DNA of 64,000 nucleotides, taken from contig NZ_QWET01000013.1 in assembly GCF_003573545.1 (NCBI RefSeq), positions 62,001 through 126,000 on the forward strand, given 5' to 3'. Numbering within the stretch: position 1 is the stretch's first letter; every line of letters starts with the position of its first letter. Position numbers and translations under genes: made by a program. Shown piece by piece: positions 2 to 63,132 of this stretch. The DNA is from Mariniphaga sediminis (GTDB lineage: Bacteria > Bacteroidota > Bacteroidia > Bacteroidales > Prolixibacteraceae). A model generated the notes under the pieces. That model was not told the DNA's origin and ran no database searches. It was given only the letters and a program-made list of their open reading frames with translations.

Positions 2-793
2 CTGATGCGGATTCTGATGACCCTGCTCCTTCCGGACACTGGTGAGGCTAAAATGAACGGATTTGATGTGATAAAGGATTTCAAAAAGATAAGGCATATT
101 GTGGGTTACATGCCCGGACGGTTTTCATTATACCAGGATTTGAGCGTGGAGGAAAACCTGAACTTCTTCGCCACAGTTTTCGGAACTACAGTAGAAAAAA
201 ACTACGACCTCATCCGCGACATTTATTACCAGATTGAACCGTTCAAAACGCGGCGTGCCGGGAAACTTTCAGGCGGGATGAAGCAAAAACTGGCGTTGTC
301 TTGTGCACTCATTCACAAACCTAAAATCCTGGTGCTTGATGAGCCAACCACGGGTGTAGATGCAGTTTCAAGAAAAGAATTCTGGGAGATGCTGAAAAAA
401 CTGCAAAAAAAAGAAATTACCATCCTGGTTTCAACACCTTACATGGACGAAGCCACCCTTTGCGACCGGGTGGCCCTGATTCAGAAAGGGAAAATACTGG
501 ACGTGGATTCGCCCCGGCGGATTACCGAAAAATTCCCGCGAAAAATCATCCGGGCCCGTTCCGACGAAATGTACCGGTTAATTAATGATTTGCGGGCATT
601 TAAAAAGGCAGAGTCTGTATTTGCATTCGGGCAGTATGCCCACTTCACAGGTATTGAGGATAATGTGGAAACGACAGAACTGGATATTTACCTCGAAAAA
701 CTAAATCACAAAAATGTATTGGTGGAAGAGATTCCGCCTGGAATTGAGGATGTGTTCATGAGTATGCAGGAGCAGGCAGTGAGCAGTGAGTAA
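2..793 (+). CDS. ABC exporter ATPase, first of two (5'-truncated)
   Basis: This is the ATP-binding subunit of an ABC-2 type exporter, equivalent to the N-terminal half of YbhF. The reading frame is open to the window edge, and the Walker A motif lies upstream of the window, so the gene is partial. Counting from the ATG at position 5, the signature LSGGMKQ is at residues 88-94 and Walker B (ILVLDEP) at 108-114; GYMPGRFSLY (34-43) stands in the Q-loop region and is typical of YbhF-like proteins. The gene heads a run of second ATPase and two permeases, interrupted by two S23-type genes. Its last codons (AVSSE) are encoded by AGTGAG repeats that also occur left of the second S23 gene, so the natural C-terminus may have been altered by an insertion. 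The family is firm; the exported substrate (drug, lipid or other) cannot be read from sequence. Confidence 0.9.
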   Translation: MMRILMTLLLPDTGEAKMNGFDVIKDFKKIRHIVGYMPGRFSLYQDLSVEENLNFFATVFGTTVEKNYDLIRDIYYQIEPFKTRRAGKLSGGMKQKLALSCALIHKPKILVLDEPTTGVDAVSRKEFWEMLKKLQKKEITILVSTPYMDEATLCDRVALIQKGKILDVDSPRRITEKFPRKIIRARSDEMYRLINDLRAFKKAESVFAFGQYAHFTGIEDNVETTELDIYLEKLNHKNVLVEEIPPGIEDVFMSMQEQAVSSE

Positions 794-799
794 GAAGAG
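778..799 (+). repeat. Left end of S23 cassette 1 (AGTGAG repeat)
   Basis: The sequence AGTGAGCAGTGAGTAAGAA starts here and overlaps the end of the first ATPase gene. It matches AGTGAGTAGTGAGTAGGAA at 1836 in 17 of 19 positions. Both copies lie just before a four-helix-bundle gene. The match is visible directly; that it is the end of a mobile unit is inference. Confidence 0.55.
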
Positions 800-830
800 T
801 TGACAAAATAAAACGTAAAGACAAATTAAT

Positions 831-1082
831 ATGGATTATAGAGATTTGCATGTATACAGGAAAGCATTCAGCCTTGTAATGGAAGTTTATGAGATTTCAA
901 AAAAATTTCTGAAAGAGGAAACATATTCACTCACGGGCCTGATGCGGAGATCGTCGTGGCCAACCTGTAGCAATGTGCAGAAGCGTATCGAAAGCGGAAT
1001 TATCCAAAGTACTTTGCCATGCAAGCTGATACATTTTATGATTTTGAATCCGGAAAAATTCGGTAGCAGCAAGATTCTGTAA
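831..1082 (+). pseudogene. Broken four-helix-bundle (S23/IVS-encoded family) gene
   Basis: The first 43 residues (MDYRDLHVYRKAF..., RRSS) resemble the start of the S23/four-helix-bundle family (TIGR02436) and of the intact relative at 1913. After about position 976 the family pattern continues in another frame: codons from 977 read AEAYRKRNYPKYF, a typical family core, and stop at 1064-1066. The shift equals a net loss of one base. The annotated frame instead runs on as non-homologous residues to a stop at 1082. The C-terminal helices are also missing or scrambled, so the gene is almost certainly dead. It sits between the two ATPase genes of an exporter, where no such gene is expected. Confidence 0.8.
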
Positions 1083-1098
1083 ACTGATCACTGACTCA
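1083..1098 (+). repeat. Right end of S23 cassette 1
   Basis: ACTGATCACTGACTCA lies directly between the broken S23 gene and the second ATPase start. It ends in the same GACTCA as the sequence after the second S23 gene (2263-2284) and loosely resembles the reverse complement of the left ends. The similarity is imperfect, so the status as a terminal repeat is tentative. Confidence 0.4.
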
Positions 1099-1100
1099 TC

Positions 1101-1820
1101 ATGGAAACTATTATTGCAGTAAAAAACCTGGTTAAAAAATTCGGAAACTTCATGGCCAACGACCACCTCACGTTTGATGTGCATAAAGGTGAAATTTTTG
1201 GGTTCCTTGGGGCAAATGGCGCCGGCAAAACAACGGCTATCCGCATTTTATGCGGACTCTCCTCTCCCACTTCGGGCGACGTGAATGTAGCTGGATTTGA
1301 TATTTACCGAGAGACGGAAAAAATCAAAAAAAACATCGGGTATATGAGCCAGAAATTTTCATTGTATGAAGATTTGACCGTTTCGGAAAACATTCAGCTT
1401 TATGCAGGAATTTATGGGATTTCAGCAAAAAAAAGAAAAGAAAAAGAAGCCGAACTGCTGAAAAAACTGGGAATGGGAGAAGCCCGCGGAAAACTAATTG
1501 CAGGACTTCCATTGGGATGGAAACAGAAACTGGCTTTTTCGGTAGCTATTTTTCATGATCCCAAAATCGTATTTCTTGATGAACCCACCGGCGGTGTTGA
1601 CCCTGTAACACGCCGAAAGTTTTGGGACCTCATTTACGAAGCAGCCAACAATGGTATTACGGTATTTGTAACGACCCATTATATGGACGAAGCCGAATAC
1701 TGCGACCGCGTTTCGATTATGGATGCCGGAAAAATAGAAGCGCTTGATACCCCGGCAAAGCTGAAAGAAAAGTACCAGGCCAGCAATATGGACGAAGTGT
1801 TTTTACAAATAGCAAGATAG
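1101..1820 (+). CDS. ABC exporter ATPase, second of two
   Basis: This ATP-binding protein corresponds to the C-terminal half of YbhF. It has Walker A (GANGAGKTT, residues 37-45), a Q-loop glutamine at 84 and Walker B (IVFLDEP, 156-162). The signature is the degenerate GLPLGWKQ (135-142) instead of LSGGQ, as is usual for the second ATPase of YbhF-type exporters. It therefore probably works as a heterodimer with the first ATPase, which has the canonical signature. At 239 residues it is a complete single domain. The start directly follows the right flank of the broken S23 gene. It should power the ABC-2 permeases encoded at 2277 and 3498. Confidence 0.92.
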   Translation: METIIAVKNLVKKFGNFMANDHLTFDVHKGEIFGFLGANGAGKTTAIRILCGLSSPTSGDVNVAGFDIYRETEKIKKNIGYMSQKFSLYEDLTVSENIQLYAGIYGISAKKRKEKEAELLKKLGMGEARGKLIAGLPLGWKQKLAFSVAIFHDPKIVFLDEPTGGVDPVTRRKFWDLIYEAANNGITVFVTTHYMDEAEYCDRVSIMDAGKIEALDTPAKLKEKYQASNMDEVFLQIAR

Positions 1821-1835
1821 CTGCTAGTAACAAGT

Positions 1836-1857
1836 AGTGAGTAGTGAGTAGGAAAGA
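1836..1857 (+). repeat. Left end of S23 cassette 2 (AGTGAG repeat)
   Basis: AGTGAGTAGTGAGTAGGAA starts 15 bases after the stop of the second ATPase and is nearly the same as the left flank of cassette 1 at 778. It contains a tandem of AGTAGTGAGT-type units. The intact S23 gene begins 55 bases further on. Confidence 0.55.
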
Positions 1858-1912
1858 TTCAGAAGTAAGATTCATCTCAAATAGCTGAAATGTTAAACTT
1901 AAATCAAGTATC

Positions 1913-2263
1913 ATGAACAAATTTAAAGAATTAAAAGTATGGCAAAAAGCAATTCAACTTGTAACAAAGATTTATTCTCGCACATCAAATTTTCCAAAAG
2001 AAGAAATGTATGGAATTGTTTCACAAATCAGAAGATGTGCTGTTTCTATTCCTTCAAATATTGCAGAAGGTGCGGGTAGAGGAGGCAAAAAGGAATTTTC
2101 TCATTTTCTGGACATTGCCAGAGGATCTTCATTTGAATTGGAAACACAATTAATCATTTCTAAAGAACTTGGATTTTTAAATCAATTCAATTTTGACAAC
2201 TTATATTCAGAACTGGATGAAATTCAAAAAATGATAACCGGATTGCAAAAAAGTATGATCTAA
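1913..2263 (+). CDS. Four-helix-bundle protein, S23/IVS-encoded family
   Basis: This is an intact 116-residue member of the S23/four-helix-bundle family (TIGR02436), first known from open frames inside intervening sequences of 23S rRNA genes. Family hallmarks visible are ELKVWQKAIQLV near the N-terminus, IRRCAVSIPSNIAEGAGR in the middle (about 38-55) and ELETQL in the third helix. The length is normal for the family. The cellular role is not established; the fold and a basic surface suggest nucleic-acid binding. It lies between an ATPase and a permease of one exporter and is flanked by sequences shared with the broken copy at 831, which suggests insertion into a pre-existing operon. Confidence 0.9.
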   Translation: MNKFKELKVWQKAIQLVTKIYSRTSNFPKEEMYGIVSQIRRCAVSIPSNIAEGAGRGGKKEFSHFLDIARGSSFELETQLIISKELGFLNQFNFDNLYSELDEIQKMITGLQKSMI

Positions 2264-2284
2264 CTACTAACGACTAATGACTCA
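2263..2284 (+). repeat. Right end of S23 cassette 2
   Basis: ACTACTAACGACTAATGACTCA starts at the last base of the S23 stop codon and contains the permease start codon (2277). It shares TGACTCA and 11 of the final 16 bases with the right flank of cassette 1 (1083-1098). The motif is built of ACTAATGACT-like units that mirror the AGTGAGTAGT units on the left. Interpretation as an element end is inference. Confidence 0.4.
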
Positions 2285-3383
2285 GTTACTCTCTTTTATA
2301 AAAAAAGAATTCTTCCACATTTTTCGCGACCCGCGAACCATGCTGATTTTGTTCGGGATTCCCATTGCCCAGCTACTGATTTTCGGGACAGTGATAAAAA
2401 GTGAAATCCGGGACGTACACATTGCCATATACGACCAGTCGAAAGATGTTACAACACAGGAAATTACCAATAAACTGCTGTCGTCAGGATATTTTATACT
2501 TGATAAAAACCTGGAAAACACCAATGATATCGATGCGATTTTCAGAAAAGGGAAGGTAAAGGAAGTGGTCGTGTTTGGAAGTAATTTCAGCGAAAAACTA
2601 ACCAAAGAAGGCAAAGCAGATGTGCAACTCATTGCAGACGCATCCGATCCAAATACCGCCCGGCTGGTGGTTTCATACACCAGCGGAATTATCAACGACT
2701 ATGTAAAAAAGATGCACCCCAACCTGGAAATGCCCTTGCAAATTCAATCTGAAGTTCGCATGTACTTTAACGAAGAAATGAAAAGCGCCTATATGTTTGT
2801 GCCGGGGGTAATGGCGCTTATTTTAATGCTCATTTCCGCCATGATGACTTCCATTTCCATCACCCGGGAAAAAGAACTCGGAACCATGGAAATACTGCTG
2901 GTATCACCCCTCAAACCGGGACAAATTATTATCGGCAAAGTACTGCCTTATCTGCTGCTGTCTATCGCCAATGCTTTTGTAATTGTTCTTATCGGCAATC
3001 TTGTTTTTGGTGTACCCATTTCCGGTAGTTTTATCCTGCTGATGCTGGAAACCATTCTGTTTATTATGATGGCCCTCTGCCTGGGAATTCTCATTTCCAC
3101 CGCTGCTAAAAACCAAATGACAGCCATGTTTATTTCGATGGTTGGACTGATGCTCCCCACTATCATTTTATCCGGATTCATTTTTCCTATTAAAAATATG
3201 CCGGAAGTTTTACAGTGGCTCAGCCACATTATGCCGGCCAGGTACTTTATCACCATCGTCCGCGGTATTATGCTCAAAGGTGTGGGAATTCTTTTTGTGT
3301 GGAAGGAGACCCTGATTCTGATTGGAATGACTCTATTTTTCATTGTGTTGAGTGTGAAAAAGTTTAAGATAAGATTGGAGTAG
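2277..3383 (+). CDS. ABC-2 type permease, first of two (YbhS/YbhR-like)
   Basis: This inner-membrane subunit belongs to the ABC-2 family and forms the export channel with the permease at 3498. It has one N-terminal membrane segment (about residues 22-38), a large extracytoplasmic domain (about 40-165) and five or six C-terminal segments. The conserved stretch TREKELGTMEILLVSPL (around 198-214) is the family hallmark. The length of 368 residues is normal. The chosen start gives MTQLLSFIKKEFFHIFRDPR, the usual N-terminus of these permeases, although the ATG lies inside the flank of the inserted S23 gene. A periplasmic adaptor and an outer-membrane channel, normally upstream, would lie outside the window. 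Confidence 0.92.
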   Translation: MTQLLSFIKKEFFHIFRDPRTMLILFGIPIAQLLIFGTVIKSEIRDVHIAIYDQSKDVTTQEITNKLLSSGYFILDKNLENTNDIDAIFRKGKVKEVVVFGSNFSEKLTKEGKADVQLIADASDPNTARLVVSYTSGIINDYVKKMHPNLEMPLQIQSEVRMYFNEEMKSAYMFVPGVMALILMLISAMMTSISITREKELGTMEILLVSPLKPGQIIIGKVLPYLLLSIANAFVIVLIGNLVFGVPISGSFILLMLETILFIMMALCLGILISTAAKNQMTAMFISMVGLMLPTIILSGFIFPIKNMPEVLQWLSHIMPARYFITIVRGIMLKGVGILFVWKETLILIGMTLFFIVLSVKKFKIRLE

Positions 3384-3497: not shown

Positions 3498-4616
3498 ATG
3501 AAAACGATAATATACATACTTCAAAAAGAATTCCGGCAGATATTCCGGAACAAAACCATGTTGCCTATGATTTTTGCGGTGCCATTGATACAAATGCTGG
3601 TCCTGGTTTTTGCTGCCACATTCGACATGAAAAAAATCGACATGGTGGTGGTTGACAAAGACCTGTCCGAAACATCACGGGAGCTGATTGCCAAATTCGA
3701 TGCCATTCCGTTCTATCACCTCGCCTTTGCGGTACCCGATGAAACTCTTGGTGAAGAAATGCTTTTAAGCGACGACGCTGATGCTATTCTGGTAATTCCT
3801 GCCAACATGGAACGCAGCCTCATCCGCGATGACAAAGCCCGGTTGCAACTGCTGGTAAATGCTATCGATGGAAACACCGCACAACTGATTTATGCTTACT
3901 CATCGCGAATTATTGGTCACTTTAACAGAAACCTGGTGGCCGAATGGAAAGGGATTCCTGAATTTACACCGCCCACAGAAATAAAAATGGCAGAAAGCTA
4001 CTGGTACAACACCGAACTCGACTATAAATGGTACATGGCCCCTGGCATTCTGGCTATTCTGGTTACCATCATCGGAATGTTTATGTCGGGAATGAACCTA
4101 GTACGCGAAAAAGAAATTGGCACCATCGAGCAGCTTAACGTTACGCCGGTAAAAAAATACCAGTTTATCATCGGTAAGCTGGTTCCGTTTTGGGTAATTG
4201 CCCTTTTTGACCTCGCTTTCGGACTGTTTATTGCCTGGCTGGTGTTTGATCTCCCCATCGTTGGTAGTCTGTGGTTGCTTTTCGGAATGGCTGGTGTTTA
4301 TCTCGTAGGGGTTCTTGGACTGGGACTATTCATTTCTACCATTACTGATACCCAGCAGCAGGTAATGTTTGTAAGTTTCTTTTTTATGATTGTGTTTATT
4401 TTGATGGGCGGCATTTTTACACCGGTGGAAAGTATGCCGCACTGGGCACAAACGGCAAACTTGGTCAACCCTATTTCCTACTTCATGAGAATCATGCGGA
4501 ATATCATTCTCAAAGGCTCAGGATTTATCGATTTAATGGAAGAATTTCTCTCGCTGACCGCTCTGGGAATTACCTTCCTGAGCCTGGCCATTTGGCGCTA
4601 CCGGAAAACCACATAA
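3498..4616 (+). CDS. ABC-2 type permease, second of two (YbhR-like)
   Basis: This 372-residue permease is a paralogue of the preceding gene. It shows an N-terminal segment after FRQIFRNKTMLPMIFAVP, a large extracytoplasmic loop (about 40-175), the hallmark VREKEIGTIEQLNVTPV (around 202-218) and five or six C-terminal membrane segments. The two permeases presumably form a heterodimer driven by the two unequal ATPases. A 114-base gap separates it from the first permease; unlike the two earlier junctions it contains no S23 gene or AGTGAG repeat. It is the last gene of the exporter operon. Confidence 0.92.
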   Translation: MKTIIYILQKEFRQIFRNKTMLPMIFAVPLIQMLVLVFAATFDMKKIDMVVVDKDLSETSRELIAKFDAIPFYHLAFAVPDETLGEEMLLSDDADAILVIPANMERSLIRDDKARLQLLVNAIDGNTAQLIYAYSSRIIGHFNRNLVAEWKGIPEFTPPTEIKMAESYWYNTELDYKWYMAPGILAILVTIIGMFMSGMNLVREKEIGTIEQLNVTPVKKYQFIIGKLVPFWVIALFDLAFGLFIAWLVFDLPIVGSLWLLFGMAGVYLVGVLGLGLFISTITDTQQQVMFVSFFFMIVFILMGGIFTPVESMPHWAQTANLVNPISYFMRIMRNIILKGSGFIDLMEEFLSLTALGITFLSLAIWRYRKTT

Positions 4617-4745: not shown

Positions 4746-4814
4746 ATAAAACCTTAGTGAGACCGGGAAGCTCCGAAGACATGAGGAGATCACCCGGCCG
4801 AAGTTAGGTTTTAT
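4746..4814. repeat. Long imperfect hairpin
   Basis: ATAAAACCT (4746-4754) pairs with AGGTTTTAT (4806-4814). Inside it, 4761-4767 pairs with 4793-4799 (one mismatch) and CTCC (4771-4774) pairs with GGAG (4785-4788). The stacked pattern suggests a structured RNA or a palindromic element about 70 bases long. There is no T-run after it, so it is not a simple terminator of the permease gene. Its function is unknown. Confidence 0.5.
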
Positions 4815-59866: not shown

Positions 59867-61840
59867 ATGGAACTGACAGTTTTACCGGATATCGTCATCA
59901 TATTTGCCCTTGCAACTTTTGTAAACCTGCTTTTCACGCGGTTAAAAATTCCTACGGTAGTAGGATATTTAATGACAGGAATTATTGCCGGCCCTCATCT
60001 TCTGGCATTGGTTAAAGAAGAGCACAATATTGAACTTCTGGCTGAAATAGGAGTTGTTTTGTTATTGTTTACAATTGGACTGGAATTTTCGCTGAAACAC
60101 CTTTTAAGAATCCGGCGGATTGTATTTTTTGGCGGCCTGTTACAGGTTTCTGTTACGGCAGTTTTATTTTACCTGCTCTCCTCATTCTTCCACATGGATT
60201 GGAAAGGGGGTCTTTTCATTGGCTTTCTGGCGGCACTAAGCAGTTCGGCGCTTGTGCTGAAATTATTGCAGGAACGTTCCGAACTTACTTCCAATTACGG
60301 AAGGACAGTCCTCGGTATTCTTATCTTCCAGGATTTATTGCTGGTTCCCCTGCTACTTTTTGCCAACCTGCTGAGCAATAACTCGGTGGATATTGGCAAG
60401 GAACTGCTGGTGTTGTTTTTAAAAGCAACGGGCATTATCGGTTTAGTTTACGTCGGTAACCGTTGGTTTTTTCCTAAGGTGCTGCATTTTATCGCCCTGG
60501 CCAAAAACCAGGAGTTGTTTATGATGAGCATTTTCCTGATTTGTTTTGGCATTGCCCTCCTGACGTACAAGCTGGGGCTGTCTCTGGCATTCGGGGCATT
60601 TCTGGCCGGTCTTATGATTTCAGAGTCGGAGTACAGTCACAATGCTTTTGGGAACCTGATGCCTTTTAAAGATATTTTTACGAGCTTTTTCTTTGTGTCA
60701 ATCGGCATGTTGCTGGATCTCTCCTTTGTAGTTGACAACATCCTGCTGGTTGTCGGGAGTGTTTTGCTTCTTATTGTCCTGAAAACAATAATTGCATCTT
60801 TCACCGGTTTTATACTCGGCCACACGTTTCGCGGCATTGTTCTCATCGGGTTCGCCTTGAGCCAGGTAGGTGAATTTTCGTTCCTCCTTGCCAAAGTAGG
60901 ATTTGATGCGGCCATCCTTTCTTCCTTCAGCTACCATCTTTTTTTGGCCGTTGCCGTCATTACCATGGCGCTTACTCCCCTGCTGATGAATATTTCCCTT
61001 CCGGTTGCCAACTCCTTTTTGAAACTCCGGTTACCCGACTTTCTTGTACATGGTCTTTTTCCTTTAAAAGAAATTGATATTCCCGATTTCAAAAATCACC
61101 TCGTAATAATTGGAAAAGACTCCAGTGCCCTGAAACTTTCAGTAATGGCAAAACAATATGATATACAACATGTATCAGTAGTCTTTGATCCGACCATTGC
61201 CAAAGAAAAAATGGATAATGCCGACAATGTGGTTTACGGTGATGCCGTGAATGAACCCATTTTGCTAAAAGCCCATGTTAATGCAGCCGATGTGGTAGTA
61301 GTTTCAGTTGGCGATATCATTCCTTCCATGGCCATCATCGAAAAAGTAAAAAAAATAAACAGCAGTGCCTTTGTAATTGCCCGCGCCCGGAATATTGAAA
61401 ATGTGCCCGAACTATTTAAAATGGGTGCCGACCAGATTTTCCCGGAAAAATTTGAAATAGCCATCGACTTCTTCAACAGGGTACTGATGAAAAGACTTTA
61501 TCCGCAGAAGGAGATAAACCGGATGCTGGCGCATATCCGAAGTATGAGCCTGGGAACATTTAGTGAAAAGGACATGGTAAACCAACCATCCATCCTTGAC
61601 GAACTTCCCAATGTCAATATTTCAGCCATATCAGTGGAAGAAAATTCATTCGCTGCCGGAAAGAACCTCGGAGAGACAGATCTGAGAAAAAGAACAGGAG
61701 TTACCTTACTTGCGATTAAAAGAGGTGACGAAATTATTGAACGCCCAACGCTCAAAACAATGTTTTTGCCGGGAGATACTGCCTATGTTTTGGGAGACCC
61801 TGAGCAGGTCAATCTTGCAGTGGAATTATTTTCGCCTTAA
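59867..61840 (+). CDS. CPA2-family cation:proton antiporter with TrkA domains
   Basis: This 657-residue protein has twelve or thirteen membrane segments (about 1-390), a TrkA-N/RCK nucleotide-binding domain (about 405-525, HLVIIGKDSSALKLSVMA) and a TrkA-C domain (about 570-655). It resembles KefB/KefC and Na+/H+ exchangers of the CPA2 group, which move K+ or Na+ against protons and are gated by cytoplasmic ligands. No KefF/KefG ancillary gene is near. The conserved signature GYLMTGIIAGPHLL is at about 34-47. Confidence 0.92.
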   Translation: MELTVLPDIVIIFALATFVNLLFTRLKIPTVVGYLMTGIIAGPHLLALVKEEHNIELLAEIGVVLLLFTIGLEFSLKHLLRIRRIVFFGGLLQVSVTAVLFYLLSSFFHMDWKGGLFIGFLAALSSSALVLKLLQERSELTSNYGRTVLGILIFQDLLLVPLLLFANLLSNNSVDIGKELLVLFLKATGIIGLVYVGNRWFFPKVLHFIALAKNQELFMMSIFLICFGIALLTYKLGLSLAFGAFLAGLMISESEYSHNAFGNLMPFKDIFTSFFFVSIGMLLDLSFVVDNILLVVGSVLLLIVLKTIIASFTGFILGHTFRGIVLIGFALSQVGEFSFLLAKVGFDAAILSSFSYHLFLAVAVITMALTPLLMNISLPVANSFLKLRLPDFLVHGLFPLKEIDIPDFKNHLVIIGKDSSALKLSVMAKQYDIQHVSVVFDPTIAKEKMDNADNVVYGDAVNEPILLKAHVNAADVVVVSVGDIIPSMAIIEKVKKINSSAFVIARARNIENVPELFKMGADQIFPEKFEIAIDFFNRVLMKRLYPQKEINRMLAHIRSMSLGTFSEKDMVNQPSILDELPNVNISAISVEENSFAAGKNLGETDLRKRTGVTLLAIKRGDEIIERPTLKTMFLPGDTAYVLGDPEQVNLAVELFSP

Positions 61841-63132
61841 TGAACTGTTTTTACCAGCTTATTCCCAATCGGGCAACTTAAACACTTTCTATTCTCGCAA
61901 TGTTTATTTTTCAACTGTAGCAACGCTTGGGTTTCAAAGGCAGAACGGGCCTCAACCCCCAGTTTTTTCCACTTATTTATAATGGTATTCTTTTCCGGCT
62001 GGAGTTTCTCCAGAAAATCGAGTGACCGGTTTTTCAGATGATGCCTGTTTTGCCGCTCGCCATATACAAACAGAAATGGCACAACCACATTTACAATCAG
62101 TGTATCAATGGAATTTTCGCCCAGCTCTTTCACATGCTTCCGGGGAGAGAGTTTATTGAAACGGTAGTGGTTATCCCAATACTCCGAAGCCTTTACCCTG
62201 AACAGCTCTCTCAGATCTTCCACCTTTTCTGTATCCACAATTTTGGAAAAAAGTCCCTGTGAATGATAGACCAGTGCCGCCAGTTGCGAAATACGAATGG
62301 TCGGAAAATTGACAGGACGCAACCGCATAAACTTCCAAAGGTGGGCTTCCACCGGGGCCAACTGGTACTTTTTGTGCAGAAACCCAAATTCTTTCCGAAG
62401 TTCGAGAAAATAGTCATCGCCCAAAAGTTCTTCGTTTAGCAGTCCTGAAGCTCCAAAAAGCAGAGCCTCCAGTTGGAAAAGACTGTTTTTATGTTTAGCC
62501 AGAATATGTAACGGCACTGCCTTGGCCAGCAAACCGAAGGGAACTGAGTTGACTTTGAAGCCAAACATGCGGGCCAGCATCTGGTAGAATGTTTCATTCC
62601 AATTATACTGGTTTTGCTCTAACCCCCGGATTATTTCCCCGGTTTTGTCTTCCAACCGTTCAATCATCAGGCGGTTGAATCCAAGGCGAAGCACAACAGG
62701 ATCGAAGTGATAGAATTGTTCTTCGCAGGCAATCCAGGTTTTGGCATCCAGTAGTTTCTGATAATTTTGCGTGAATTGCTCCGGCCAGGAAAATTCAAGG
62801 GAGGCAATTTCAGTCCCGTTTTCGCGGAAAACCTTTTTATCTGCCAGTTCCACTACATGTAAAATAACATTTTCATAAGCCTTGTCGCCTGTGTGGGCAT
62901 GCCTTTCCCAGTCTGAAACTTTTTTATGAATCTCAATATTCCCGGCCCAGACGGTTTCGCCAATCTTAACTTTTGCATTAAAAAAATCTGGCCCGGAATC
63001 ACTGTTTCTCCTTCCTGTATTCAAAATCTCTAATGGCTCACCCCCTGTCGTTTTCAGGTTTTCAGAAAAAAAAAGCCGGTTTTCCCAGATAAAATGGAGA
63101 AATTCTTCAGGAATAGGTTTTAGTGTGTTCAT
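61837..63132 (-). CDS. DUF2851-family protein
   Basis: This 431-residue cytoplasmic protein matches DUF2851, a family found almost only in Bacteroidota. Recognisable stretches are EEFLHFIWENRLFF, GRRNSDSGPDFFNAKVKIGETVWAGNIEIH (about 40-69) and CENRKCLSCPIGNKLVK at the C-terminus, where three cysteines could bind metal. The GPDFFNA...GNIEIH block resembles a nuclease-like core, but this is a guess. It overlaps the antiporter stop by 4 bases on the opposite strand. Function unknown. Confidence 0.88.
   Translation of the reverse strand: MNTLKPIPEEFLHFIWENRLFFSENLKTTGGEPLEILNTGRRNSDSGPDFFNAKVKIGETVWAGNIEIHKKVSDWERHAHTGDKAYENVILHVVELADKKVFRENGTEIASLEFSWPEQFTQNYQKLLDAKTWIACEEQFYHFDPVVLRLGFNRLMIERLEDKTGEIIRGLEQNQYNWNETFYQMLARMFGFKVNSVPFGLLAKAVPLHILAKHKNSLFQLEALLFGASGLLNEELLGDDYFLELRKEFGFLHKKYQLAPVEAHLWKFMRLRPVNFPTIRISQLAALVYHSQGLFSKIVDTEKVEDLRELFRVKASEYWDNHYRFNKLSPRKHVKELGENSIDTLIVNVVVPFLFVYGERQNRHHLKNRSLDFLEKLQPEKNTIINKWKKLGVEARSAFETQALLQLKNKHCENRKCLSCPIGNKLVKTVH

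Follow-up and report, generated by a model that had tools for sequence, protein, structure and literature searches.

S23 sequences in an ABC exporter operon

The ABC exporter operon at the beginning of a 64,000-nt stretch of contig NZ_QWET01000013.1 from Mariniphaga sediminis (hereafter the window) raises the question of how sequences of the S23 four-helix-bundle family came to lie between the genes of a protein-coding operon. S23 genes are best known from rRNA inserts, and the intervening sequence (IVS) of 23S rRNA is cut out by RNase III. Both S23 units of the window are located in exporter operon junctions, not in a 23S rRNA helix.

All features are encoded on the forward strand. The ATPase 1 gene (2–793) starts before the window, and its last residues and stop codon fall inside the left arm of cassette 1 (774–793), which consists of AGTNNNN-type repeats. 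This is followed by an S23 sequence recognized by profile search and blastx ("gene 1", 831–1082) and by a right arm (1083–1098) that ends 2 nt upstream of the start codon of ATPase 2 (1101–1820). The left arm of cassette 2, AGTAACAAGTAGTGAGTAGTGAGTAGG (1826–1852), lies 5 nt downstream of the ATPase 2 stop codon and precedes an S23/four helix bundle gene of 116 aa ("gene 2", 1913–2263; PF05635, TIGR02436), whose right arm (2264–2284) overlaps the start codon (2277) of the ABC-2 permease 1 gene (2277–3383); the ABC-2 permease 2 gene (3498–4616) comes next.

The original prediction assigned an S23 gene to each of the two junctions. S23-family sequence is indeed present in both, but only gene 2 is intact, matching all 106 positions of PF05635 with 147 bits, whereas the 83-aa frame of gene 1 reaches 35.7 bits (cut-off 33.8) over positions 1–47 of 106 only. 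Compared to the same-clade copy of genome G011, gene 1 has kept the first approximately 50 residues and the C-terminal NPEKFGSSK, while most of the middle is gone, and its best blastx matches include intact same-junction S23 copies from five relatives. Gene 1 is therefore a remnant with an internal deletion. A probable third remnant, overlooked in the original prediction, is suggested by AGT heptads and an S23-like stretch (blastx E 8e-4) in the HlyD/ATPase 1 junction just upstream of the window. The permease 1/permease 2 junction of the window gave no S23 match; the junction before permease 2 carries S23 in three relatives (G003, G012, and G016).

As predicted, the left flanks AGTGAGCAGTGAGTAAGAA (778–796) and AGTGAGTAGTGAGTAGGAA (1836–1854) agree at 17 of 19 positions, and TGACTCA is found at 1092–1098 and at 2278–2284, in the latter case over the permease 1 start codon (2277). 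However, as the S23 genes of the two junctions fall into separate clades, the match between the left flanks reflects the common repeat word AGTNNNN. The proposal that left and right flanks are inverted repeats of each other holds for most of the 140 loci described below but only modestly for the window itself. For the arms of gene 2, the score was reached by 9 of 3000 shuffles with 160 nt per side and by 94 of 3000 when the gap was scored by itself, and for those of gene 1 by 173 of 3000 with 160 nt per side and by 32 of 3000 with short flanks. The cassette 2 arms have a predicted duplex energy of −20.7 kcal/mol. In a coarser scan of the window, which covered 31 intervals separating ORFs of 150 aa or more, p ≤ 0.02 was reached twice, in both cases outside the S23 junctions. 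The strong case for arm pairing comes from other loci. A group I/II intron or another catalogued RNA was set aside, as Rfam gave no match at the gathering threshold across the 64-kb window.

Same-junction copies in orthologous operons

A permease match was obtained in 35 of 40 genomes (M. sediminis included), and 26 operons could be read in 25 genomes, while those of G007, G035, and G037 were only partly on a contig. Eight of the 26 orthologous operons contain 14 intact S23 copies. Junctions holding an intact copy measure 444–566 nt and are mostly short elsewhere. Copies at the same place in other genera, which were expected to speak against mobility if no empty sites existed, are found alongside orthologous junctions lacking S23.

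In the S23 tree, which was entered by 136 rows of a 141-row set (see below), and in sequence comparisons, gene 1 groups with the ATP1/ATP2 copies and gene 2 with the ATP2/PERM1 copy of G011, and recent insertion of two sister copies into the window was set aside. Since their closest relatives are same-junction copies of other genera, the S23 copies of the window do not look fresh but old. Judged from this tree, same-junction copies appear to have been inherited across genera, which implies that movement is rare there; no recent insertion was seen in between-species comparisons within Bacteroidota. Furthermore, S23 was probably duplicated within one exporter operon. Within same-junction clades, S23 is under purifying selection (dN 0.14 and dS 1.12 for the G000/G011 pair; many further pairs have a saturated dS).

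The clustering of same-junction copies across genera could also be expected if S23 were a resident operon gene with a regulatory stem, subject to lineage-specific loss, whose arms co-vary through quasi-palindrome correction during replication. Against this, G010 carries in the same ATP1/ATP2 junction a copy from another S23 clade with unrelated arms, which the tree shows to be an independent insertion.

Complementary arms with a 7-nt period

In one genome scan, at least 593 stretches matched and the best 80 were kept. After removal of duplicates and of genes with less than 250 nt of flank, 180 S23 domain hits yielded 141 rows; one gene occurred twice, leaving 140 genes, mostly from Bacteroidota but also from several other phyla, for the analysis of arm pairing. 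The control comparison, period, tree, and left-arm stop count used the 141-row set. As anticipated, the two flanks of a locus proved complementary in most of the 140 loci: the mean score was 19.17 for matched and 10.88 for mismatched loci, with a maximum of 11.72 in 2000 permutations, a statistic that ignores the relatedness of loci. Significant arms were found for 68 of 140 genes at p ≤ 0.01 and for 99 at p ≤ 0.05, compared to 1 and 10 of 178 control genes; 41 of the 140 had none at p ≤ 0.05. Among representatives with less than 60% identity (n = 100), the scores were 19.54 and 10.73, with 50 and 72 genes significant at the two thresholds.

The arms share a 7-nt period. The excess self-match at lags of 7, 14, and 21 nt amounted to 0.075, 0.049, and 0.035 upstream and to 0.075, 0.059, and 0.044 downstream of S23, and to at most 0.012 around control genes. 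S23 genes with 7-nt arms occur in several phyla; the arm words differ between loci, and period and pairing are what they have in common. Within a single Flavobacterium junction (145 genomes with nadD, 30 loci returned, both genes readable in 28), 12 orthologous S23 cassettes showed covariation between arms, with 58 of 10,000 permutations reaching the matched score, and 25 of 10,000 reached the RNA duplex energy of the same cassettes; these permutations likewise take no account of relatedness. Furthermore, stop codons are enriched in left arms (0.1025 per position compared to 0.085 in shuffles; reached in 0 of 2000 shuffles), a count covering the 43 of 69 significant arm pairs with arms of at most 60 nt.

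Across 40 genomes (M. sediminis included), the number of AGTNNNN arrays correlates with S23 copy number (rho 0.78), and the 10 genomes without S23 had 3 array matches altogether. Genome size correlated with S23 count at 0.56 and with array count at 0.49. However, the arrays correlate equally with the count of PDDEXK_3 genes (rho 0.77), and we therefore rejected them as specific to S23; a reversed control pattern, also a heptad, was often as frequent. PDDEXK_3 (GxxExxY) genes have comparable paired arms with a longer period of about 9–10 nt. It is conceivable, albeit speculative, that both belong to a broad class of mobile cassettes whose ends are set by repeat period and mutual pairing, the period depending on the cargo protein.

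Both neighbors are co-oriented with S23 for 116 of 128 copies (216 of 324 control genes), and both are opposite for 1 of 128. This bias would be expected if an excised S23 hairpin RNA were copied and inserted in sense by a reverse transcriptase. bAvd, a relative of S23, acts with a reverse transcriptase in diversity-generating retroelements, and S23 matches its profiles weakly (PF22296, E 4e-7; NF033474, E 1.4e-5). Both scores lie below the curated bAvd/DivGenRetAVD cut-offs (30.9 vs 40 bits for PF22296 and 25.3 vs 80 bits for NF033474). The orientation bias is equally explained by selection for S23 expression, and antisense copies exist between co-oriented genes (L256 and L259), for which reason purely RNA-level insertion in sense was dropped as the default. 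We consider RNA-level movement improbable.

Filled and empty sites on cyanobacterial plasmids

Evidence for insertion comes from cyanobacterial plasmids, where sites with and without a cassette were found with flank identities of up to 98%. Over 7 plasmid sites, exact target duplications of 5 nt were present at 2, a 3-nt duplication at 1, and none at 4. Empty alleles were taken from some of the listed records, at site 1 from 1 of 6. At this site, the empty allele reads AAAAA-GTAAT-TAACAAA and the filled allele has GTAAT on each side. At site 3, TTCTA is duplicated relative to an empty copy that the strain carries on a second plasmid; two further, more diverged empty copies lack the duplication. 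Filled alleles at four sites lack 11–42 nt of the empty allele, and plasmid site 2 was rearranged beyond reading. Moreover, L258, L262, and L265 can be aligned over their whole length as members of one cassette family, and each of the three lies among different genes. A phage-borne unit was set aside after a tblastn search with a single query against 50,697 phage records (E 1e-5) revealed no S23 match.

These pairs largely contradict a resident gene; two sites with exact 5-nt duplications and the end-to-end homology of cassettes in different contexts also speak against it. The left arms of L258 and L269 differ by 14 nt, i.e., by exact heptads, as quasi-palindrome correction would allow, and such correction may shape the arms after insertion; as an account of the whole, we regard the resident gene as very unlikely.

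MITEs and REP/REPIN-RAYT systems are small, non-autonomous, intergenic, and bounded by inverted repeats, with fixed ends that are recognized by a transposase. The S23 cassette resembles them in the first four respects, and it could be a MITE-like DNA element that depends on the transposase of an ordinary IS acting in trans, with S23 as a passenger. In line with this, short duplications of the target occur at 2 of 7 sites, the unit lacks a recombinase, and 11 of 13 S23-less Flavobacterium gmk/nadD gaps of 40–300 nt contain hairpins (z ≤ −3). However, unlike those of MITEs and REP/REPINs, the ends of S23 cassettes share period and pairing instead of sequence and vary between loci, and a gene is carried that is under purifying selection. 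Furthermore, 7-nt arms accompany S23 in several phyla, and a longer period accompanies PDDEXK_3 cargo. A MITE-like element is thus an unlikely explanation, though the least unlikely of the three alternatives.

Taken together, paired arms and empty sites support, for the family, the original prediction that the S23 gene plus flanks forms an IVS-like mobile cassette able to enter operons, and we state this architecture and mobility with high confidence.

Comparison with rRNA inserts and heptamer arrays

The IVS of Coxiella burnetii, as described in PMC4990558, is 428 nt long and has terminal inverted repeats whose loop contains an S23 ORF, with tandem GACAGAT heptamers just upstream of the ORF whose number varies among strains. 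It is sporadically distributed and was earlier suspected to be mobile, and its S23 was reported to be probably not expressed and decaying. Size, an S23 ORF within complementary termini, and heptamers ahead of the ORF are thus shared with operon cassettes. Unlike the IVSs, the cassettes lie in mRNA operons instead of 23S rRNA helices, and their S23 is under purifying selection; target duplications and empty-site pairs, seen for plasmid cassettes, are not described for the Coxiella IVS in the passages of PMC4990558 considered.

Heptamer arrays are known from Xanthomonas and Nostoc, with inverted pairs reported in Xanthomonas (PMC4692102), and as TAACTGA repeats from Beggiatoaceae, cyanobacteria, and Bacteroidetes (PMC4679880). 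Like the cassette arms, they are mostly intergenic, near genes, and extensively variable in length. These sources treat them as repeats, G-quadruplex sites, or regulatory sites; "S23" and "IVS" are absent from PMC4692102 and "23S" from PMC4679880. By analogy, these arrays may represent arms without S23.

Proposed mechanism

Our preferred explanation, which we regard as probable as a whole including its mechanism, is that the S23 unit is a mobile insertion cassette of approximately 400–550 nt in which the S23 gene sits between two degenerate 7-nt-repeat arms complementary to each other. It would enter as DNA via a staggered cut near a stop or start codon within an operon. Insertion would be tolerated because a 7-nt repeat spans all three frames, so that the left arm tends to terminate reading frames entering from upstream. 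Arm pairing in the mRNA would be a second reason, as it can place the S23 gene in the loop of a stem like that of the 23S rRNA IVS; such an mRNA-level stem appears somewhat more plausible than not. As the ends have no fixed sequence, we infer that the paired structure with bound S23 protein is the target of the mobility machinery, although the role of S23 as a putative mobility factor is tentative. After landing, the cassette would be inherited, with drifting repeat number and arms that stay paired, and S23 may be lost by internal deletion, as at 831–1082.

Significance

The S23 gene and the heptamer repeats belong to a single unit whose insertion points are defined, and the origin and role of both therefore become testable. 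This addresses long-standing questions about where 23S rRNA IVSs, the S23 gene, and scattered degenerate heptamer repeats come from and what they do. If the broad class proposed above exists, the cargo protein would recognize the paired arms and might contribute to their renewal. Members or decay products of this class would then include 23S rRNA IVSs, cyanobacterial heptanucleotide repeats, the TAACTGA arrays, those of Xanthomonas, and many operon hairpins that lack S23. Movement can readily be assayed with the empty/filled plasmid pairs, and cutting of the stem can be sought in the natural mRNAs of the exporter operon. Finally, many genes annotated as "four helix bundle protein" within operons may be insertions and not functional partners of their neighbors.

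S23 sequences in the exporter operon

The exporter operon, inside which the window starts, has the order TetR, TolC-like, HlyD-like, ATPase1, ATPase2, permease1, and permease2, with the TetR, TolC, and HlyD labels of the genes upstream of the window assigned from sequence alone. While the original prediction placed two S23 genes here, only the one between ATPase2 and permease1 (1913-2263) is intact, encoding 116 aa (PF05635, 147 bits; TIGR02436). The 83-aa frame between ATPase1 and ATPase2 (831-1082) matches S23 family positions 1-47 only and lacks most of the middle part, and is therefore considered a decayed copy; the top blastx matches all fall within a single S23 clade and include intact same-junction copies in five relatives. 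Furthermore, the HlyD/ATPase1 junction directly before window position 1 (G000:C5, approximately 61662-61875; L046:4663-4876) probably carries a third, weaker remnant, judging from AGT heptads and a frame like the S23 N-terminus (blastx E 8e-4).

The flank matches first noted at the two copies are exact, but their inverted pairing, judged in the window alone, is modest: with 160 nt per side, the score was reached by 9 of 3000 shuffles for the intact gene and by 173 of 3000 for the decayed one, and neither junction stood out when 31 gaps were scanned more coarsely. The arms of the window junction have a predicted RNA duplex energy of -20.7 kcal/mol, and about 11 base pairs are expected to join one end to the other. 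Downstream of the operon, a separate inverted repeat (4746-4814) has 22-nt arms that are 77% complementary and 25 nt apart.

Orthologous operons with and without S23 genes

We compared 26 orthologous exporter operons from 25 genomes, three of them in part only. As the original prediction anticipated, operons lacking the gene exist, with no S23 match in 17 of the 26. Fourteen intact copies were found in 8 operons, at the HlyD/ATPase1, ATPase1/ATPase2, ATPase2/permease1, and permease1/permease2 junctions, every one in operon sense. Junctions with an intact copy measure 444-566 nt; many S23-less junctions are shorter than 100 nt or overlapping, and some contain other sequence or hairpins (strong, z≤-3, in 6 of 22 junctions of 60-300 nt). 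The arms typically begin at or just upstream of the preceding stop and finish at the next start, and in several cases the C-terminal residues of the upstream protein are now repeat-encoded (e.g., 774-793 in the window).

Same-junction copies group across genera in a tree of 136 rows and 121 columns, in which many forks are unsettled: ATPase1/ATPase2 copies from five genera (99/95), permease1/permease2 copies from three genomes (98/95), and the ATPase2/permease1 copies of the window's genome and G011 (100/91). Same-junction copies are under purifying selection (e.g., dN 0.14 and dS 1.12 for the latter pair), with dS saturated in many other pairs. The ATPase2/permease1 copies of G012 and G005 fall outside the junction groups. 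The HlyD/ATPase1 copy of G011 is nearest to that genome's own ATPase1/ATPase2 copy (96/76) and probably arose by duplication within the operon. The ATPase1/ATPase2 copy of G010 comes from a distant clade, is bordered by (CAATTGA)n arms, and represents a separate insertion event at this junction.

Paired arms with a 7-nt period

The S23 family was present in 30 of 40 genomes, the window's own included, with up to 17 copies; a scan of named genomes matched at least 593 stretches, of which the 80 best loci were used. On inspection by eye, the two flanks of S23 loci in the window's genome carry repeats and their complement, respectively, in words that vary from locus to locus. In a set of 140 S23 genes, mostly from Bacteroidota, with 250 nt per side (141 rows, one gene appearing twice), complementarity averaged 19.17 between flanks of the same locus vs 10.88 between different loci (maximum of 2000 permutations, 11.72), and 100 representatives below 60% identity gave a similar picture (19.54 vs 10.73). 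Against first-order shuffles, pairing reached p≤0.01 in 68 and p≤0.05 in 99 of the 140, compared to 1 and 10 of 178 other genes from the same loci, so that the inverted-repeat reading stands at the family level. Upstream as well as downstream, flank self-match was highest at lags 7, 14, and 21, clearly exceeding all other lags from 3 to 24; these peaks were absent from the control genes. Moreover, upstream flanks are G-richer and downstream flanks C-richer than controls. S23 genes sit between mutually complementary arms whose repeat period is 7 nt.

The gmk/nadD junction of Flavobacterium, readable in 28 of 30 loci, held S23 with TAG/AGT heptad arms in 12, a DoxX-like gene in 2, and no long frame in 14; strong hairpins (z≤-3) occur in 11 of 13 S23-less gaps of 40-300 nt. 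Across the 12 orthologs, arm words shift jointly on both sides: the matched complementarity was reached in 58 and the matched RNA duplex energy in 25 of 10000 permutations (relatedness ignored). The DoxX-like gene (L207 and L217; one of the two genes matched this label) fills a junction that elsewhere has S23 or a bare hairpin.

Heptad repeats also occur in the window's genome without an S23 gene. At L012/L013 (G000:C38), AGTTCAAAGTTTAAAGTTC and its complement form a heptad hairpin in the spacer that separates the end of a 16S rRNA gene from two tRNA-like sequences (rRNA and tRNA labels by eye), with no S23 gene present. A long AGTNNNN array (L015, G000:C45:91803-91854) lies in a gap adjoining a permease-like gene, with no S23 frame seen there, approximately 2.7 kb from an S23 cassette of the same contig. 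In the S23 alignment, five invariant residues (Q38, R41, S45, N49, and E52) are 3-4 apart and would thus share one face of one helix.

Empty and filled sites on plasmids

With one query, 29 of 72,556 plasmid records, the majority of them cyanobacterial, gave an S23 match. STRR repeats are known from cyanobacteria. Searches with the flanking DNA of several of these loci returned similar plasmids without S23. At site 1, the empty allele reads ...AAAGTTAAAAA-GTAAT-TAACAAA..., and the filled allele has GTAAT on either side of the cassette (flank identity approximately 98%). At site 3, the empty allele ...AGG-TTCTA-GGTTATG... corresponds to TTCTA on either side (91-93%); this empty copy lies on another plasmid that the strain carries, where the next junction is filled by a different S23 cassette, and the duplication is absent in two other, more diverged empty copies. 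Among seven sites, 2 have an exact 5-nt duplication, 1 has 3 nt, and 4 have none; at these four, 11-42 nt present in the empty allele are missing from the filled one.

Between two filled copies of site 1, the length of the left arm differs by exactly 14 nt, i.e., two heptads, and a related plasmid (L268) retains a shortened S23 remnant there, a decay of the same kind as in the window. The cassettes of L258, L262, and L265 align end to end despite different neighbours, with the homology of L262 to the other two plasmid records restricted to the cassette. The proposed small mobile cassette is upheld for the S23 family; of the copies in the window, one is intact and apparently old, and one or two are decayed. 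On a Pseudanabaena galeata plasmid (L264:889-3053), a CRISPR operon has an S23 cassette between its cas6 and cas4 genes; the arms of this cassette are very long and made up of AGCTAAA-type heptads.

Proposed mechanism

A 7-nt repeat runs through all three frames, so that a stop triplet in its word closes all three. In 43 arm pairs, left arms have 0.1025 stops per position vs 0.085 in shuffles (reached by 0 of 2000), and closure of every frame occurs in 53% of left arms, compared to 23% of right and 26% of shuffled left arms. Frame closure by the left arm would make insertion close to a gene end survivable, and in the transcript, the arms are predicted to pair with the S23 gene enclosed. Neighbours on both sides are co-oriented for 116 of 128 S23 copies vs 216 of 324 control genes, and both opposite for 1 of 128 vs 20 of 324; since antisense copies were found, orientation is a bias rather than a rule.

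A second cargo family and the relation to intervening sequences

In G016, the ATPase2/permease1 junction (L051) contains a PDDEXK_3 (GxxExxY) gene instead of S23, between CACAGAG-type arms. PDDEXK_3 loci in relatives (L226-L255) have paired arms at p≤0.05 in 19 and at p≤0.01 in 15 of 29. In this set, matched arms scored 19.7 vs 12.0 when permuted (maximum of 5000 permutations, 16.4), and a weaker self-match rise (0.018-0.038) appeared at lags 8-10, with none at lag 7 in the 29 loci. The period is approximately 9-10 nt, and thus two unrelated cargo families seem to have a common cassette plan with different periods.

A report on the 23S rRNA intervening sequence (IVS) of Coxiella describes tandem GACAGAT heptamers, in strain-dependent number, ahead of the S23 ORF, and a 28-bp stem cut by RNase III in vitro (PMC4990558). 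The operon cassette has the same plan, including the heptamers before the S23 ORF. Heptamer repeats have also been described in Xanthomonas, where inverted pairs are present, and Nostoc (PMC4692102), as has the repeat TAACTGA (PMC4679880). Among the titles and abstract openings listed in searches of a library that covered few subscription journals, none connected S23 genes with paired heptamer arms inside operons, which is weak evidence of absence. The S23 cassette belongs to the IVS kind, with possibly a wider class behind it.
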